Shown here: positions 11,387 through 18,812 of the stretch, piece by piece
How positions within the stretch are numbered: the first letter of the stretch is position 1
Layout of the letters: each line of letters begins with the position of its first letter
Assembly (NCBI RefSeq): GCF_000017545.1
Contig: NC_009718.1
Span: 1,178,001-1,242,000, forward strand
DNA length: 64,000 bases
From: Fervidobacterium nodosum Rt17-B1
GTDB lineage: Bacteria > Thermotogota > Thermotogae > Thermotogales > Fervidobacteriaceae
Direction of reading: 5' to 3'
The notes under the pieces: model-generated
What the model saw: only the letters and a program-made list of their open reading frames with translations
What the model was told of the DNA's origin: nothing
The model's database searches: none
Made by a program: the position numbers and the translations under genes

Positions 11387-12166
11387 ATGTCAAACACGAA
11401 AAAAATTGTAATTTCCTTGGAGAATATATCATTCTCTTACGGTGAAAATTTTGAGTTAAAGGATATTAGCCTATACGTAGAAGAGGGAACGTTCTTCGGT
11501 ATAATAGGTCCAAACGGCTCGGGTAAAACAACACTTTTATCACTAATAATGAAATTTCTAAAACCCGCTTCGGGAAAAATTATGATAAACGGAAATGATA
11601 TTAAGCATATGTCACACAAAAAGATAGCACAAAACATTGCGTACATAGCCCAAGATTTCAACCCATCTTACGATTATACAGTTGAAGAAATAGTGGAAAT
11701 GGGAGGCATAGCTCACTCAAAAAATTTCTTTGATACAGAAGTTGATGAATCGAAACTTATAAATGCTCTTAACACTGTTAATTTAGTAGAGTACAGAAAA
11801 AGACCATTTTCAACACTCAGTGGTGGTCAACAAAGACGCGTCCTTATTGCAAGAGCGATTTACCAAAATACACCAATAATAATCGCAGATGAGTTGATAA
11901 ATCATCTTGACATAGGTCAGTCTGTAAAAGTGATGGATTACTTAAAATCGTTAACAAAAATGGGAAAGACTGTATTAGGAACTTTCCACGATATAACCAT
12001 CGCTGCGAAATACTGTGACATAATAGCACTTATGAAAGATGGCGAAATAACCAAAGTAGGTACACCAAAAGAAATCATAAATAAAGATATTCTCGAAAAA
12101 ATATACGATATAAACTTAAAGATTATACACTCTCCAGATGTAGAATACCCAATTATAGTTATTTGA
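11387..12166 (+). CDS. ABC transporter ATP-binding protein (FecE/BtuD-like), orphan
   Basis: ATPase subunit of a metal-chelate type importer, 259 residues. Walker A GPNGSGKTT is near residue 42, Q-loop YIAQDF near 86, signature LSGGQQRRVLIARA near 140 and the switch His in GTFHDIT near 193. Walker B and D-loop read IIADELINHLD where DEPTNHLD is usual. ATG 11387 was chosen over TTG 11369 because AAGGGA precedes it. No permease or binding protein gene lies beside it, so the partner must be elsewhere. It is the last gene of the train that begins at 3226. Confidence 0.88.
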   Translation: MSNTKKIVISLENISFSYGENFELKDISLYVEEGTFFGIIGPNGSGKTTLLSLIMKFLKPASGKIMINGNDIKHMSHKKIAQNIAYIAQDFNPSYDYTVEEIVEMGGIAHSKNFFDTEVDESKLINALNTVNLVEYRKRPFSTLSGGQQRRVLIARAIYQNTPIIIADELINHLDIGQSVKVMDYLKSLTKMGKTVLGTFHDITIAAKYCDIIALMKDGEITKVGTPKEIINKDILEKIYDINLKIIHSPDVEYPIIVI

Positions 12167-12218
12167 CATCTTGCAACCTTATTATTATAAATGTAACTTA
12201 ATTTACTTACTATTAACG

Positions 12219-12248
12219 TTGACATTGTGTACTTTTTTGTGTTAGGAT
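12219..12248 (+). promoter_or_regulatory. Promoter for the uracil permease gene
   Basis: TTGACA at 12219-12224 is a perfect -35 box. TAGGAT at 12243-12248 is a fair -10 box, with an 18-base spacer. Transcription would start near 12255 and give a leader of about 60 bases before the ATG at 12317. Confidence 0.7.
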
Positions 12249-12276
12249 AGCTTTGTAAGAGAAAAAAAGTCAAATA

Positions 12277-12310
12277 CCTTTAATTTCGCCCAGTGAGGCG
12301 AGAAAGGAGG
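12277..12310 (+). promoter_or_regulatory. PyrR-like RNA hairpin covering the permease ribosome-binding site
   Basis: In the leader, CGCC (12287-12290) pairs with GGCG (12297-12300) around a CAGTGA loop, and CCTTT below pairs with AAAGG of the Shine-Dalgarno. CCCAGTGAGGCGAGAAAGG resembles, from memory, the PyrR-binding loop (CCAGNGAGG then GAGA and AAGG) of pyrimidine leaders. The SD AAAGGAGG lies in the 3' strand, so protein binding could block translation when uridine nucleotides are plentiful. No terminator hairpin is seen, which points to translational control. Confidence 0.5.
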
Positions 12311-12316
12311 AAAAGT

Positions 12317-13564
12317 ATGGAAAAAACAGATATTATTGGCATTTCTCAGGAAAATCCCGCTAAAATCACCGAGTTTACATCAAACTTGCCTACCTCAAAG
12401 AAACTTATTCTATCACTTCAGCATTTCGTAGCCATGTTCGGAGCAACAGTATTAGTACCTCTTCTCACTGGATTAGATCCTCTCGTTGCACTCTTCACGG
12501 CAGGTCTTGGAACGTTACTTTTCCATTTTATCACCGGCGGAATTGTCCCAGTCTTCTTAGGTTCAAGCTTTGCTTTCATTGCCCCAATTATAATGGTTAA
12601 AGAAAAATACGGAGATATCAGATACTCGCTTGGTGGAATAGTAATAGCTGGAACAGTTTATCTAATCTTCTCCTTGATTGTCAAGCTGGTTGGTACGAAT
12701 GTGATTAAGAAACTATTCCCTCCTGTGGTTACCGGTCCGATGATAATGGTGATAGGTTTAGGTCTCTCCCCTGTTGCGGTAAACATGGCATCGTCAAATT
12801 GGCCCATAGCGTTGGTAGTTATAATCACAGTTATAGCCTCTGCAACAATCTTCAAAGGATTTTTCTCACTCATTCCAGTCTTAACAGGTGTCTTCGTCGG
12901 TTACATCACATCGATACTCGCGGGAATAATTGATTACTCTCCTATCGTAAATTCAGCGTGGATTTCAGTTCCAAAGTTCATACTTCCAAAATTCGACTGG
13001 GCTGCGATAAGTTTAATTGCACCGGTGGCGTTTGTCACAGTTATGGAGCATATAGGTGATATAACAACAAACGGTGCAGTTGTTGGAAAGAATTTCTTCG
13101 AAAAGCCCGGTGTTCACAGAACGCTGCTTGGTGACGGATTGGCAACAATGGTGGCAGCTATGATAGGTGGTCCTGCAAATACAACGTACAGTGAAAACAC
13201 AGGAGTACTTGCGATAACTAAAGTATATGATCCGTCTATTCTCAGAGGAGCAGCAATACTGGCTATGTTGGTAGCCTTCTTCTCAAAATTCGGGTCAGTG
13301 TTGCAAACTATTCCAACCGCCGTTATCGGTGGAGTTAGTTTAATCCTCTTTGGTATGATAGCCTCTATCGGTGTTAGAACACTTGTGGAAGCCAAAGTCG
13401 ATTTCTCAAAATCAAGGAACTTAATAATAGCTGCACTTATCTTAACACTCGGTATAGGTGGAGCGAGTATAAAGATAGGTGGTATAGAACTAAAAGGCAT
13501 GGCACTTGCCGCAATCTTTGGTATTATAGCGAATTTAGTGATACCAGAAAGCTTGGAAAAATAA
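12317..13564 (+). CDS. Uracil permease (NCS2 uracil/xanthine family)
   Basis: Membrane proton symporter importing uracil (or xanthine), 415 residues with about 14 membrane spans. Conserved family features include QHFVAMFGATVLVP near residue 32, the central MEHIGDITTNG stretch carrying a substrate-binding Glu near 240, and GGPANTTYSENTG near 280. ATG 12317 was chosen because AAAGGAGG lies 6 bases upstream. An in-frame GTG at 12293 would fall within the leader hairpin. Substrate choice (uracil) is supported by the family and by the PyrR-like leader. purK follows after 34 bases. Confidence 0.9.
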   Translation: MEKTDIIGISQENPAKITEFTSNLPTSKKLILSLQHFVAMFGATVLVPLLTGLDPLVALFTAGLGTLLFHFITGGIVPVFLGSSFAFIAPIIMVKEKYGDIRYSLGGIVIAGTVYLIFSLIVKLVGTNVIKKLFPPVVTGPMIMVIGLGLSPVAVNMASSNWPIALVVIITVIASATIFKGFFSLIPVLTGVFVGYITSILAGIIDYSPIVNSAWISVPKFILPKFDWAAISLIAPVAFVTVMEHIGDITTNGAVVGKNFFEKPGVHRTLLGDGLATMVAAMIGGPANTTYSENTGVLAITKVYDPSILRGAAILAMLVAFFSKFGSVLQTIPTAVIGGVSLILFGMIASIGVRTLVEAKVDFSKSRNLIIAALILTLGIGGASIKIGGIELKGMALAAIFGIIANLVIPESLEK

Positions 13565-13598: not shown

Positions 13599-14777
13599 AT
13601 GAATAGCTCAAAGCATCTTTATCCGTTTAAAACCTTAGGTTTTATCGGTGGCGGACAATTGGGGAAGATGATGGCAATCGAAGCTAAACGTATGGGTTTT
13701 CGAGTAATAGCTTTAGACCCGAATCCCAATTGTCCCATCTCAAATCTTTGCGATGAATTGATAGTAGGAAGTCTGTACGATGAAGATTCACTCATGAAGT
13801 TAGTTGAGAAATCGGATGTTGTGACATACGAAATAGAACATACAAATACCAATTTCCTGAAAGAATTGTACGATAAAGGTTACAATATCCAACCATCACC
13901 ATATATCCTTGAGATAATCAACGATAAGCTTATCCAGAAGAAATACCTCATATCAAACGGTTTTCCAACTTCTAAGATATATGAATTAGATTTATCGAAA
14001 TATTCTCAAGCATCAGAAAGAAAACATATCATTGAAGATTACAATATTACTTATCCATTTGTTCAAAAAGCCAGAAGAGGGGGGTACGACGGTAGGGGGG
14101 TTTTTGTTTTAAAAACGCAACAAGATTTAGATAAAATTATCCCCTCAGAGTCGTACATCGAAGAGTATGTTGATATAAAGAAAGAAATTTCCGTTCTTCT
14201 TGCAAGGGATAGAAATGGTAACATAAAGGTTTATGAACCGGTTGAAATGATATTTGCTGAGTTCGGGAATATTCTTGATATGTTGATTAGCCCTGCCAGA
14301 ATAGGCGAAGAGATAAAAGAAAGAGCAAAGGATATTGCTATTAAATTGGTTGAAAAGCTCAATGGTATAGGAGTCTTTGCTATAGAAATGTTTGTAACAT
14401 CTCAAGATGAAGTTTTAATTAACGAAATTGCTCCTCGTGTTCACAATTCCGGTCATCACACTATCGAATCTTGCTTTACAAGCCAATTTGAACAGCATAT
14501 AAGAGCTATCTGCGACTTCCCACTTGGTAGTACTCATCAACACACACCAGCAGTCATGATTAATCTTCTTGGTGAAGACGGATACAACGGCAGACCTGTT
14601 GTTGAGAATCTCGAAGATGTATTCTCAACAGAGGGTGCATATTTTCATTTTTACGGAAAGACAAACACAGCACCACGAAGAAAGATGGGACATATAACTA
14701 TTCTGGATGAAGATATTGAAAGAGCGATACAAAAAGCAATTTATTTAAAATCGAAAGTGAAGATTATAGCGAAATAA
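13599..14777 (+). CDS. purK: 5-(carboxyamino)imidazole ribonucleotide synthase
   Basis: ATP-grasp enzyme that carboxylates AIR to N5-CAIR in purine synthesis. It has 392 residues. The N-terminal GFIGGGQLGKMMA motif is near residue 16, the ATP-grasp lid RRGGYDGRG near 157 and the metal-binding NEIAPRVHNSGHHT near 275. ATG 13599 follows GTGGGGGT, while GTG 13569 upstream has no SD. It heads the purKECSQL block, and purE, the mutase acting on its product, is next. Confidence 0.95.
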   Translation: MNSSKHLYPFKTLGFIGGGQLGKMMAIEAKRMGFRVIALDPNPNCPISNLCDELIVGSLYDEDSLMKLVEKSDVVTYEIEHTNTNFLKELYDKGYNIQPSPYILEIINDKLIQKKYLISNGFPTSKIYELDLSKYSQASERKHIIEDYNITYPFVQKARRGGYDGRGVFVLKTQQDLDKIIPSESYIEEYVDIKKEISVLLARDRNGNIKVYEPVEMIFAEFGNILDMLISPARIGEEIKERAKDIAIKLVEKLNGIGVFAIEMFVTSQDEVLINEIAPRVHNSGHHTIESCFTSQFEQHIRAICDFPLGSTHQHTPAVMINLLGEDGYNGRPVVENLEDVFSTEGAYFHFYGKTNTAPRRKMGHITILDEDIERAIQKAIYLKSKVKIIAK

Positions 14778-14813: not shown

Positions 14814-15350
14814 ATGGAGAAAATGGAAAAAGTATCTCATCCTTTGGTGGGAATAATAATGGGTAGTGATTCTGATTTGAAAGTGATGAAAGACGCTGCA
14901 AGGGTTTTGGATGATTTTGGCATCCCGTACGAACTTACAATAGTCTCTGCACATAGAACTCCTGAGAGAATGTACAATTACGCAAAAAATGCTGAAGAAA
15001 GAGGCATAGAAGTGATTATCGCAGGAGCTGGTGGTGCTGCACACCTTCCCGGAATGGTCGCCTCCATCTCAACGCTTCCTGTTATAGGTGTTCCAGTGAA
15101 AGGATCGTCTCTTGATGGGCTCGATTCACTTTTGTCGATAGTCCAAATGCCAAAAGGTGTACCCGTGGCAACAGTTGCGATAAACAACGCGCAGAATGCT
15201 GGATTACTCGCTGTGCAGATACTTTCTGTAAAATACAAAGAATTAAGAGATAAACTGAGAGAATACAAAGAAAAATTGCAAACAGAAGTCGAAAGTAAGG
15301 CTAAGAAGCTTGAAGAGATAGGCTATGAGAAATACGGTGAGAATTTATAA
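14814..15350 (+). CDS. purE: N5-carboxyaminoimidazole ribonucleotide mutase (class I)
   Basis: Converts N5-CAIR, made by PurK, to CAIR. It has 178 residues, close to the family norm with a slightly long, Lys/Glu-rich C-terminal tail. Visible motifs are [18 protein letters not shown] with the catalytic His, and [15 protein letters not shown] 14814 follows GGGGGC; an in-frame TTG at 14808 is a weaker alternative. The pairing with purK shows this is the bacterial two-step carboxylation route. Confidence 0.95.
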
Positions 15351-15372: not shown

Positions 15373-16068
15373 ATGAATATCGTTTCCGAAGGGAAAACAA
15401 AGAAAGTTGAAGACCTCGGTACAGAAGTGATGTTGCATTTTAAAGATGATATAACCGCAGGAGATGGAGCAAAACACGATGTGCTTCAGAATAAAGGTGC
15501 AATCTGTTCTGAAATCACCGCAAGATTGATGAAATATTTGAACGAAAAAGGCATTTACACAATGTATCTTGAATATTTGCCACCAAACAAGATAAGAGCA
15601 AGAAAATTGAAGATGATACCTCTTGAAGTAATCGTCAGATTCAAAAAAGCCGGTTCTTTTGTGAGAAGATACGGTGGAAACGAAGGAGAAGATTTACCAT
15701 CACCACTTGTTGAATTCACTTACAAAAGTGATACGTTGCACGACCCACTTATGTGTGTTGAACACCTCGAAGTACTGGGCATTACAACAAAAGAGATTGC
15801 GCAAAGTATAATTCAACAAGCAAAGGAAGCGGGAAATTATTTAAAAGAATTTTTTGAAAGTCATTCAATCGAACTCTGGGATATGAAATTCGAATTCGGT
15901 CTGGACTTAGATGGAAAGGTCTGCTTGGGTGATGAAATCTCGCCAGATACAATGAGACTAAGAAAATCGGGCGAAATATTCGACAAAGATATATACAGAA
16001 GAGATTTAGGTAATCCATTAGAAAAATACGAGGTGGTGTTGAAATTATGCCAATCTATCGATTTATGA
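15373..16068 (+). CDS. purC: SAICAR synthase
   Basis: Phosphoribosylaminoimidazole-succinocarboxamide synthase, which ligates aspartate to CAIR. It has 231 residues. It begins EGKTKKV, followed by the ATP-binding DDITAGDGAKHD near residue 30. Further on come VRFKKAGSFVRRYGG near 93 and the active-site stretch LGDEISPDTMRL near 183. The ATG at 15373 follows AGAGGTGAG. Its 3' end overlaps purS by 22 bases, consistent with coupled translation. Confidence 0.95.
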   Translation: MNIVSEGKTKKVEDLGTEVMLHFKDDITAGDGAKHDVLQNKGAICSEITARLMKYLNEKGIYTMYLEYLPPNKIRARKLKMIPLEVIVRFKKAGSFVRRYGGNEGEDLPSPLVEFTYKSDTLHDPLMCVEHLEVLGITTKEIAQSIIQQAKEAGNYLKEFFESHSIELWDMKFEFGLDLDGKVCLGDEISPDTMRLRKSGEIFDKDIYRRDLGNPLEKYEVVLKLCQSIDL

Positions 16069-16295
16069 TCGACATCCAGTACAAAAGCCACGTTAGAGAC
16101 CCACGTGGAGAGACTATAAAAAGAGTCTTAAACGAAGAATACGCAATCCCCGTAACAAATCTTCGTCTTGGTAAATCTATACACCTTGAAGTGGAGGCTG
16201 AAACGAAAGAAGATGCACTAAAGCAAGTTGAAAAAGCTTGCGAAAAGTTACTTGTTAACACCGTAACAGAGACTTTTGAGGTGAAAGAAATATGA
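16047..16295 (+). CDS. purS: FGAM synthase subunit PurS
   Basis: Small 82-residue subunit of the three-part formylglycinamidine synthase (PurS, PurQ, PurL), which helps pass ammonia from PurQ to PurL. Typical features are DPRGETIKRVLN near residues 16-27 and a basic, acidic-rich ferredoxin-like fold. It overlaps purC at the front and purQ by 4 bases at the end (ATGA). Confidence 0.93.
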   Translation: MPIYRFMIDIQYKSHVRDPRGETIKRVLNEEYAIPVTNLRLGKSIHLEVEAETKEDALKQVEKACEKLLVNTVTETFEVKEI

Positions 16296-16963
16296 GCATT
16301 CCCATACCAAAAGCACAAGTTGTAGTTTACCCGGGAAGTAACTGTGATAGGGATGCTCTGTGGGCGCTAAAATATGTTGGATTCGATGCCGATTTTGTTG
16401 ATATACACGGAAATATCGACGCAGACCTTGTGATCTTACCTGGAGGATTTTCTTACGGAGACTATTTAAGAGTCGGTGCAGTTGCTGCCAGAGAACCAAT
16501 TGCCTATAAACTTAGAGAGTTTGTGAGCCGTGGGGGGCTTGTTATAGGTATCTGTAACGGTTTTCAGATACTCGTTGAGATGGGGTTGTTACCAGGGGCT
16601 TTGCTCCAAAATTCCTGTGGGCATTTCTTGTGTAATATCGTCGAACTTGAAGTTGTCGATAACACAACACCGTTCACAAGCTATTTCCAACAAGGTGAGG
16701 TAATTAAATTACCAATAGCACACGGATTTGGAAGGTACGTTAAAGTCGATGGCGCACAGACTGTCTTTAGATACACAAAAGATGTCAACGGTTCAGATGA
16801 ATTAATCGCTGGGATAACAAATAGTTCAAAAAATATCTTGGGATTGATGCCACATCCAGAGCGGGCCATCGAAAAAATTCTCGGTTCAGATGATGGCTTA
16901 AGAGTATTTCTGAGTGTGTTCAATTACATAAAAGACCAGAAAAAAGAAGGTGTTGTGATATGA
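16292..16963 (+). CDS. purQ: FGAM synthase subunit PurQ (glutaminase)
   Basis: Class I glutamine amidotransferase that releases ammonia for PurL. It has 223 residues. The oxyanion and nucleophile motifs are LPGGFSYGDYLR near 49 and GICNGFQIL with the catalytic Cys near 87, and the His-Glu pair lies in MPHPERA near 192. It overlaps purS and purL by 4 bases at each end, so the three subunits are translationally coupled. Confidence 0.95.
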   Translation: MSIPIPKAQVVVYPGSNCDRDALWALKYVGFDADFVDIHGNIDADLVILPGGFSYGDYLRVGAVAAREPIAYKLREFVSRGGLVIGICNGFQILVEMGLLPGALLQNSCGHFLCNIVELEVVDNTTPFTSYFQQGEVIKLPIAHGFGRYVKVDGAQTVFRYTKDVNGSDELIAGITNSSKNILGLMPHPERAIEKILGSDDGLRVFLSVFNYIKDQKKEGVVI

Positions 16964-18759
16964 AATACCTTCATATCTTAGAATCGAAACTTGGCAGAAA
17001 AGCAACACGTGCTGAGATAGAAGCGTTCACAGTGATGTGGAGTGAACACTGTGGGTACTCTCACACAAAAGGATACATAAGACAACTTCCAAAGGTTGGT
17101 GTTGGTGGTAACGCAGGTATTGTACCACTCGATGATTACCATTTCTTAGCATTTAAAGTCGAAAGTCACAACCATCCGAGTGCAATTGAGCCATTCAACG
17201 GTGCTGCTACAGGTGTTGGAGGTATCATCAGAGACGTTCTTGCGATGGGAGCACGTCCTACTGCAATCCTTGATTCACTTCATATGGATAGAATTATCGA
17301 AGGCATAGTTGAAGGTATAGCCGATTATGGTAATTCCATAGGCGTTCCAACCGTTGGTGGAGAATTGAGAATATCTAATTACTATAAGCACAACCCACTT
17401 GTGAATGTAATGGCGGTTGGTGTTGGCAAAAATGAACATTTAATCCCATCGAAAGCATCTCATCCCGGACAAGTTATCGTAATATTCGGTGGTGCAACGG
17501 GACGTGATGGCATACACGGTGCATCGTTTGCATCGGAAGATTTAACTGGCGAGAAGGCAACGAAACTCTCTATACAAGTTGGTGATCCATTCGCTGAAAA
17601 GAATTTAATAGAAGCTTTCCTTGAAATGGTTGAAAAAGGTTTAGTCGAGGGCGCACAAGACCTCGGTGCTGGTGGCGTGTTATCAGCAACGAGTGAACTT
17701 GTCGCGCGTGGTGGACTTGGTGCTATTGTACATCTTGATAGGGTACCACTCAGAGAACCAGATATGCATCCGGTTGAGATACTGATAAGCGAAAGTCAAG
17801 AGAGAATGGCGGTTGTAACATCTCCCGAAAAGGCTCAAGAAATATTGAAAATTGTTAAAAAGCATCTGTTGTATGGAAACATCGTTGCCGAGGTTACAGA
17901 CAGCGGAAGGTACGTTGCTGTTTATGGTGATGAAGTTGTGCTTGATGTCCCGGCAAGATTTCTTGAAGAATCACCAGAAGAAGCGATATACGAATACACA
18001 CCAACGGAAATGCCAAAATTCAAGTGGATAAAATTCAGCGATGTCGATGCGAGCCAAGTTTTTGAAAGATACGATTACATGGTAGGTACAGATACTATCT
18101 TACCACCCGGTTTTGGACCAGCCGTTATGAGAGTCAAAAACTCAGTTGGTTACTCTTTATCCATCCACAGCCGAGCTGACATCGGTTTACAAAGTCCGTA
18201 TTGGGGTGCTTATTTGACAGTGCTTGAAAGTGTTAGAAAAACTCTAAGTGTTGGTGCAAAACCGATCGCCATAACAGACGGTATAAATTATGCTGATCCA
18301 GACGTGGAACCAATGGGACTTGCCGCGCAGATGAGAGGGCTAAAAGATGCTTGTGAATTTTCAAATATCCCAGTTGCTTCTGGAAATGCATCACTCTACA
18401 ACACATACAAAGGTAAAGGAATTCCACCAACACTTGTCATAGGAATGGTGGGAAAAACTGACAGTCATCTTGTGAATAGACCGAAAAAGGGACCTGTATA
18501 CGCAGTTGGATTTAAGGACTTCAAACTTGAAAGAGAAAAGAAATTATGGAGTGAGATAGAGAAAATAGTCAATCAAAAATGTTTCGTTGTCAGTATGCAC
18601 GATTACTCCAGAAGGTCAACCTTGGAAAATGCACTGAAAAACATCGGATACAATCCGAAATTAAACAGTCTAAGACATGAACCGGTTCACCAGTTGATCC
18701 TTGTCTTTGGAGAGCCAAAAACGGATTTACCGAAGGAAAGAACTGGATTCATATATTGA
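16960..18759 (+). CDS. purL: FGAM synthase subunit PurL
   Basis: ATP-dependent catalytic subunit that makes formylglycinamidine ribonucleotide. It has 599 residues, the small PurL type that needs PurS and PurQ. Motifs include SEHCGYSHT near residue 28, ESHNHPSAIEPFNGAATGVGG near 67, GGATGRDGIHGASFAS near 177 and GAQDLGAGG near 232, plus the second AIRS-like half. It is the last purine gene of this block and is followed by a strong terminator. purF, purM, purD and purN are not in the window. Confidence 0.95.
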   Translation: MKYLHILESKLGRKATRAEIEAFTVMWSEHCGYSHTKGYIRQLPKVGVGGNAGIVPLDDYHFLAFKVESHNHPSAIEPFNGAATGVGGIIRDVLAMGARPTAILDSLHMDRIIEGIVEGIADYGNSIGVPTVGGELRISNYYKHNPLVNVMAVGVGKNEHLIPSKASHPGQVIVIFGGATGRDGIHGASFASEDLTGEKATKLSIQVGDPFAEKNLIEAFLEMVEKGLVEGAQDLGAGGVLSATSELVARGGLGAIVHLDRVPLREPDMHPVEILISESQERMAVVTSPEKAQEILKIVKKHLLYGNIVAEVTDSGRYVAVYGDEVVLDVPARFLEESPEEAIYEYTPTEMPKFKWIKFSDVDASQVFERYDYMVGTDTILPPGFGPAVMRVKNSVGYSLSIHSRADIGLQSPYWGAYLTVLESVRKTLSVGAKPIAITDGINYADPDVEPMGLAAQMRGLKDACEFSNIPVASGNASLYNTYKGKGIPPTLVIGMVGKTDSHLVNRPKKGPVYAVGFKDFKLEREKKLWSEIEKIVNQKCFVVSMHDYSRRSTLENALKNIGYNPKLNSLRHEPVHQLILVFGEPKTDLPKERTGFIY

Positions 18760-18780
18760 CAATGTAAAGCCAAAAAATAA

Positions 18781-18812
18781 AAAATCCCGACCTAACAGTC
18801 GGGATTTTTTTA
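18781..18812 (+). terminator. Rho-independent terminator after purL
   Basis: AAAATCCCGAC (18781-18791) pairs with GTCGGGATTTT (18798-18808) around a CTAACA loop, and the T-run continues to 18811. It ends the pur transcript 20 bases after the purL stop. Confidence 0.93.

Follow-up and report, generated by a model that had tools for sequence, protein, structure and literature searches.

The window, i.e., the whole stretch of 64,000 nucleotides of the Fervidobacterium nodosum Rt17-B1 genome analyzed here, carries on its plus strand the gene uraA (12317..13564), which encodes an NCS2-family permease. The best model for this product is that of uracil permease, NF007995, with 394.9 bits, under its cut-off of 477, and the product also scores above the cut-off of TIGR00801. 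A run of purine genes follows on the same strand, and the spacing of 34 bases originally claimed between permease and purine block was found again as the 34 nt that lie between the uraA stop and the ATG of purK (13599..14777). Behind purK come purE (14814..15350, searched from 14808), purC (15373..16068; 171.6 bits, slightly below the TIGR00081 cut-off of 189.9), purS (16047..16295, assigned from gene order only), purQ (16292..16963) and purL (16960..18759), with family matches for purK, purE, purQ and purL. No terminator was found between uraA and purK. At the other end of the run, a strong hairpin with flanking A and T runs lies 3' of purL, at 18779-18810; it was scored as a minus-strand terminator, and may close the pur run in both directions.

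The hairpin at the uraA ribosome-binding site

In the uraA leader, a predicted PyrR binding loop was located at 12277..12307 of the plus strand, on the evidence of its fold, a match to RF00515 (the Rfam PyrR model), covariation and a hold-out model. Its lower stem pairs CCUUU (12277-12281) with AAAGG (12303-12307), its upper stem pairs UUCGCC (12285-12290) with GGCGAG (12297-12302), the bulge is AAU (12282-12284) and the hairpin loop is CAGUGA (12291-12296). The element thereby has the two-part stem, the 5' bulge, and the loop CNGNGA followed by GG that are the structural marks of RF00515. Moreover, AAAGG continues into AGG, so that AAGGAGG (12304..12310, plus strand) is both part of the stem and the Shine-Dalgarno sequence of uraA, 6 bases before the ATG at 12317-12319. 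In the minimum-energy fold at 37 °C the lower stem is slid, with CCUUU pairing with GGAGG; the Shine-Dalgarno sequence is therefore involved whichever register the lower stem adopts. The hairpin has a folding z of -3.28, and 2 of 200 shuffles were equally good.

The original prediction had described this stem-loop, with the Shine-Dalgarno sequence as its 3' strand and no terminator behind it, and these points were borne out: coordinates and sequence are as described, the RF00515 model is matched over its whole length, and no terminator-like site was found in 12150-12420. The good promoter that it had placed upstream held up in part, as a plus-strand promoter-like site, TTGACA-18-TAGGAT, is indeed present at 12219..12248 with 10/12 matches; its role upstream of the hairpin is no more than plausible, the number of such sites in the uraA leader region (2 found vs. 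1.0 expected) being near chance.

Fervidobacterium grows near 65-70 °C. The predicted energy of the bare hairpin is -14.9 kcal/mol at 37 °C, -5.0 at 65 °C and -3.3 at 70 °C, and the GGAGG bases are predicted to be 24-50% unpaired at 65-70 °C. As the bare hairpin would be only marginally stable at growth temperature, uraA translation should proceed without PyrR, and according to these folding predictions it is probably on by default, with PyrR needed to close the switch.

Model searches and the PyrR protein

RF00515, a test that is independent of the models built in this analysis, matched 12277-12307 with 35.8 bits (E 0.0076 when 1.5 kb were searched with 4227 families). When the genome (1,948,941 bases) was searched, the window site was its best RF00515 match (E 0.0023), and was not reported in the scan of this genome at E ≤ 0.001. 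The comparison with the Rfam model proposed in the original prediction was thus favorable as to rank and fell short as to score, the gathering score of 54 not being reached. We also built a hold-out model, R2, on 15 uraA boxes, all taken from outside the window's own genus and genus g2. Across the whole genome R2 ranked the window site first, with 53.8 bits (E 2.4e-12), followed by a site before pyrC, presented below (E 2.7e-5), and then by noise at 0.78. The pattern CCNGNGAGGY has 17 matches in the genome (12 for the reversed pattern), among which the window site alone folds as a full box; another of the 17, L009, is the pyrC leader, which was recovered by the model R1 described in the next section. 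Three weak RF00515 matches of the window's own genome (G000), at G000:C1:468528, 246359 and 321033, were rejected, being absent from the R2 matches; on inspection, no box was seen at the first of them (locus L130).

The presence of a pyrR gene in the genome, on which the original prediction had been made to depend beforehand, was ascertained at G000:C1:974209-974730, where the product scores 232.8 bits with NF003549 (cut-off of 138). The gene is not linked to uraA. The solved structures matched by the protein are PyrR proteins, including 1a3c (E 1.3e-56), which we take to be PyrR from B. subtilis. In the structure-match alignments shown, RGHRE-PIR-DYVGKN-P-SK is conserved. The PyrR tree follows the genera, and does not give the order in which boxes were gained (uraA or purE first).

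Conservation of the box and its co-occurrence with pyrR

The relatives compared at the permease, of whose 63 loci 31 were read, include Thermosipho and Pseudothermotoga. Hairpin and loop are kept in relatives, with covariation, in agreement with the conservation expected originally. A survey yielded 38 distinct boxes, from which 8 of Firmicutes and 3 with identical cores were removed to give an alignment of 27 boxes (A1). Across these 27 boxes the loop and the Shine-Dalgarno core (AAGGAG) are invariant, all pair cells are kept (297/297), and two pairs show a two-sided change, which affects 18 cells. None of 500 shuffles reached this changed-cell count or the covariation score, and 490 of the 500 reached the number of pairs with two-sided change; RNAalifold predicted the same fold from the box alignment. 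In a second alignment (A2), consisting of the 27 distinct ones of 39 upper hairpins and including pyrC and other-family sites, three upper-stem pairs are changed on both sides, in 17 cells. Its covariation score of 0.561 was not attained by any of 500 shuffles, slid pairings scoring 0.115 or less, and the number of pairs with two-sided change was reached by 21 of the 500.

The model R1 was then built from the 27 boxes of A1, and 51 bits or more were taken as a strong match. It gave 32 strong matches in 28 of the 45 genomes of the order, 26 before uraA (counting the site of G001, whose contig ends after the first uraA codons) and 6 before purE. The PyrR family scores above its cut-off in the same 28 of 45 genomes, a correspondence in which the presence of boxes is partly by construction, since many of the genomes scanned had contributed to the training of R1. 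The 17 genomes with neither strong box nor pyrR are clustered, as 14 of them belong to one family (G031-G044), the others being G018, G029 and G030; in G018, which is 60% complete, a pyrC-type site of 22 bits was detected and pyrR was not found. Eight members of that family (G034-G041) have a permease 68-70% identical, together with neither pyrR nor a strong box, and none of the five uraA leaders read among these genomes has the loop. Box, pyrR and a permease at 71-74% are found in G026-G028. A further genome of the same genus, G029, has no box, no pyrR and no close uraA, only a 51% permease relative, as if the three had been lost together. R1 matches of 20-24 bits occur in G001, G027, G028, G031 and G040. 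When the phylum was scanned, 31 of 103 genomes had a match at E ≤ 0.001, namely the 28 and three of another family in the class, whose boxes (33-37 bits) again lie on the uraA Shine-Dalgarno sequence.

A second site before the pyrimidine operon

Near G000:C1:500983, on the minus strand of the same genome, a variant of the box (GGUU-AAU-UUGGUC-CAGCGA-GGCCAA-GACC) with an exchanged lower stem (GGUU/GACC) precedes pyrC-pyrK-pyrD-pyrF-pyrE. Pfam supports pyrK, pyrD and pyrF; pyrE has a general phosphoribosyltransferase domain, and pyrC an amidohydrolase match below threshold only. The box is formed by the first codons of a leader ORF (MVNLVQRGQ..., L191:7267-7488, minus strand, outside the window), with the hairpin starting on the third base of its start codon. 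The site is also present in eight relatives (G012-G018 and G021), the leaders of G019 and G020 lying beyond contig ends, and GGAGGTG stands just 5' in 6 of the 9 genomes. In all nine, the leader frame runs without a stop through an intrinsic terminator that precedes pyrC, and the remaining two frames have stops at base 5 and at bases 16-76. The same frame is open in 0.25-3.25% of dinucleotide shuffles for eight of the genomes, and in 23% for G021. Past the box, the leaders are 34-51% identical, bar two close pairs at 92 and 96%. Judging from these alignments, it is the openness of the leader that is kept, not its sequence, as would be expected if a translating ribosome prevents the terminator, in the manner described below for Thermus. 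A leader ORF that has diverged and is always open makes a clean comparative case for control by leader translation.

No box was found before pyrC in the pyr operons of g3 and f2 genomes (13 loci with a pyrC start, L241-L253; L254 and L255 are cut), and these genomes, which have pyrR, carry R1 boxes at uraA alone or at uraA together with purE. Given the lack of a box before pyrC, the pyr operon of the g3 and f2 genomes may be outside PyrR control.

Boxes at purine genes in relatives

The order box-uraA-purK-purECSQL is found in the window and in G012-G015, G019 and G020, and G021 has box, uraA and purE in the same order; uraA and purE are close and on one strand in all 8 genomes of g1 and g2 that have uraA. 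In G016 and G017 (the latter 81% complete) uraA and purK were not found; the upstream neighbor of the box is unchanged there, and what follows the box is a leader ORF, then a terminator and purE. Moreover, each of the four g3 genomes carries a box on uraA and, in addition, a second one that is followed by a leader ORF, a terminator and purECSQL. These four purE-leader boxes exceed the RF00515 gathering score, with 61.3-64.2 bits. Purine leaders of this kind are thus present in six genomes (loci L114, L115, L116, L117, L118 and L119), and in each the box covers the Shine-Dalgarno sequence of a short leader ORF preceding an intrinsic terminator. The stop codon lies within or beyond the terminator in five of these six ORFs, and 4 nt short of it in one; taken individually the cases are weak, as shuffled pur leaders reach as far as the real ones in 22-44% of trials. 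With both hairpins forbidden, no pairing between box and terminator that could serve as antiterminator was found in any of the six leaders. The suggestion that pyrimidine state could also affect the purine genes gained support from these relatives, in which the element stands directly before purE.

A model for PyrR action and its alternatives

Overall, we consider the uraA leader element to be a PyrR-controlled translational switch, with a probability of roughly 0.86. The model is built on the anatomy of the element, its conservation and covariation, the presence of pyrR, the co-occurrence of box and gene, and the open leader frame, from which we infer the binding, the ligand, the direction of the response and the co-transcription of uraA with the pur genes. 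With the Shine-Dalgarno sequence inside the element and no terminator 3' of it, the sequence argues for the translational, rather than transcriptional, control originally put forward. When UMP/UTP are plentiful, PyrR would bind the loop and stabilize the hairpin whose 3' strand is the Shine-Dalgarno sequence, ribosome loading would be blocked, and the permease would not be made; when pyrimidines are scarce, PyrR would release the uraA leader and translation would go ahead. The same PyrR would act at its second site, the start codon of the leader ORF that precedes pyrCKDFE; with translation of that leader blocked, the terminator would be able to form. The purine genes behind uraA would probably be lowered along with uraA.

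In this scheme, PyrR probably gates ribosome access for the genes of pyrimidine uptake and pyrimidine synthesis, and it is quite likely that the gating extends to purine synthesis. That the element lowers the purine genes in this very genome is a reading that we favor to a modest degree, given their adjacency, the lack of a terminator and the arrangement in relatives. The broader proposal, of a Fervidobacteriaceae PyrR that works as a cross-pathway regulator of pyrimidine uptake and of pyrimidine and purine synthesis, by ribosome gating and with no antiterminator, has in our estimate only slightly better than even odds. As the element is placed before uraA in some genomes and before a purE leader ORF in others, with the pur genes staying behind it, selection may be acting to keep purine synthesis under PyrR.

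The alternative that survives best is that PyrR acts on uraA alone and leaves the pur genes unaffected, either through an internal promoter or because the transcript is unaffected by blocked translation. A promoter-like site within uraA (13499-13527, 9/12 matches; 1 found vs. 0.5 expected) would suit this possibility, and downstream genes need not stop when translation is blocked; however, the terminator-free gap before purK, the closeness of uraA and purE on one strand in 8 of 8 genomes, and a box that, in the two genomes in which neither uraA nor purK was found (G016 and G017), keeps its place before a leader ORF, terminator and purE make it the weaker, if serious, contender. Far less probable is that the hairpin alone hides the ribosome-binding site, as an RNA thermometer or a fixed damper without PyrR: its Shine-Dalgarno sequence is paired in a fold that holds at 37 °C and comes apart as 65-75 °C is approached, but mere damping requires neither an invariant loop, nor a conserved bulge, nor covariation in the stem, and it leaves unexplained both the match to the PyrR model and the shared distribution with pyrR. 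Transcription attenuation of the Bacillus type, with an antiterminator, to which the binding loop of the same kind and the Firmicutes permease relatives (loop, then terminator-like sequence, read by eye) could point, was rejected as highly improbable, for uraA because the window leader has no terminator and for the purE leaders because none of the six shows a box-terminator pairing when both hairpins are forbidden.

Relation to known systems

Transcription attenuation in pyrimidine operons is the textbook role of PyrR. With the Bacillus pyr attenuators (RF00515), the uraA site has in common the loop, the bulge, the two-part stem and the predicted target protein; it differs from them in having neither terminator nor antiterminator 3' of the loop, and in that its 3' strand is the Shine-Dalgarno sequence. 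In Mycobacterium smegmatis, PyrR-dependent translational repression of pyr genes was reportedly described by Fields and Switzer in 2007. The uraA site, whose predicted binding loop overlaps the ribosome-binding site, is similar in that PyrR, as proposed here, would block translation initiation rather than favor a terminator, but it belongs to another phylum, and what would be controlled is a permease gene with purine genes behind it. For the Thermus pyr leader, Van de Casteele is said to have presented in 1997 an attenuation scheme with no antiterminator, in which a translating ribosome would prevent the terminator, and to have proposed that PyrR blocks leader translation. Outside the window, the pyrC and purE leaders agree with this scheme, the box lying over the start region of a leader ORF that reaches the terminator or, in one case, ends just short of it; unlike them, the uraA site of the window has neither leader ORF nor terminator, and, in contrast to Thermus, the leader scheme here also reaches purine genes. 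Neither mode of control is therefore new in kind, the translational one having reportedly been described in M. smegmatis and the leader one in Thermus. We propose that the PyrR loop traps the Shine-Dalgarno sequence here, and that in relatives it gates an attenuator of purine genes that works through a leader ORF. If true, this would constitute a simple RNA-level link balancing purine and pyrimidine pools in thermophiles.

Within the texts available from the open-licence literature searched, we found no work on PyrR acting on purine genes, and no PyrR site of Fervidobacterium or Thermosipho. As described in PMC3766115, RF00515 was scanned in 255 genomes, including 11 Thermotogales, with the sites deposited in RegPrecise; some of the present sites may already be listed there. 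Within these bounds of literature and database, the Thermotogota sites seem to be new, as do the purine target and the presence of both modes in a single genome.

Finally, in two f2 genomes tested for domain content, uraA is followed by a gene of ~200 amino acids (L133:3336-3962 and L201:3355-4035) with MGS and partial IMPCHase domains. Its product resembles the N-terminal part of PurH, and would represent a further purine gene behind a predicted PyrR box.
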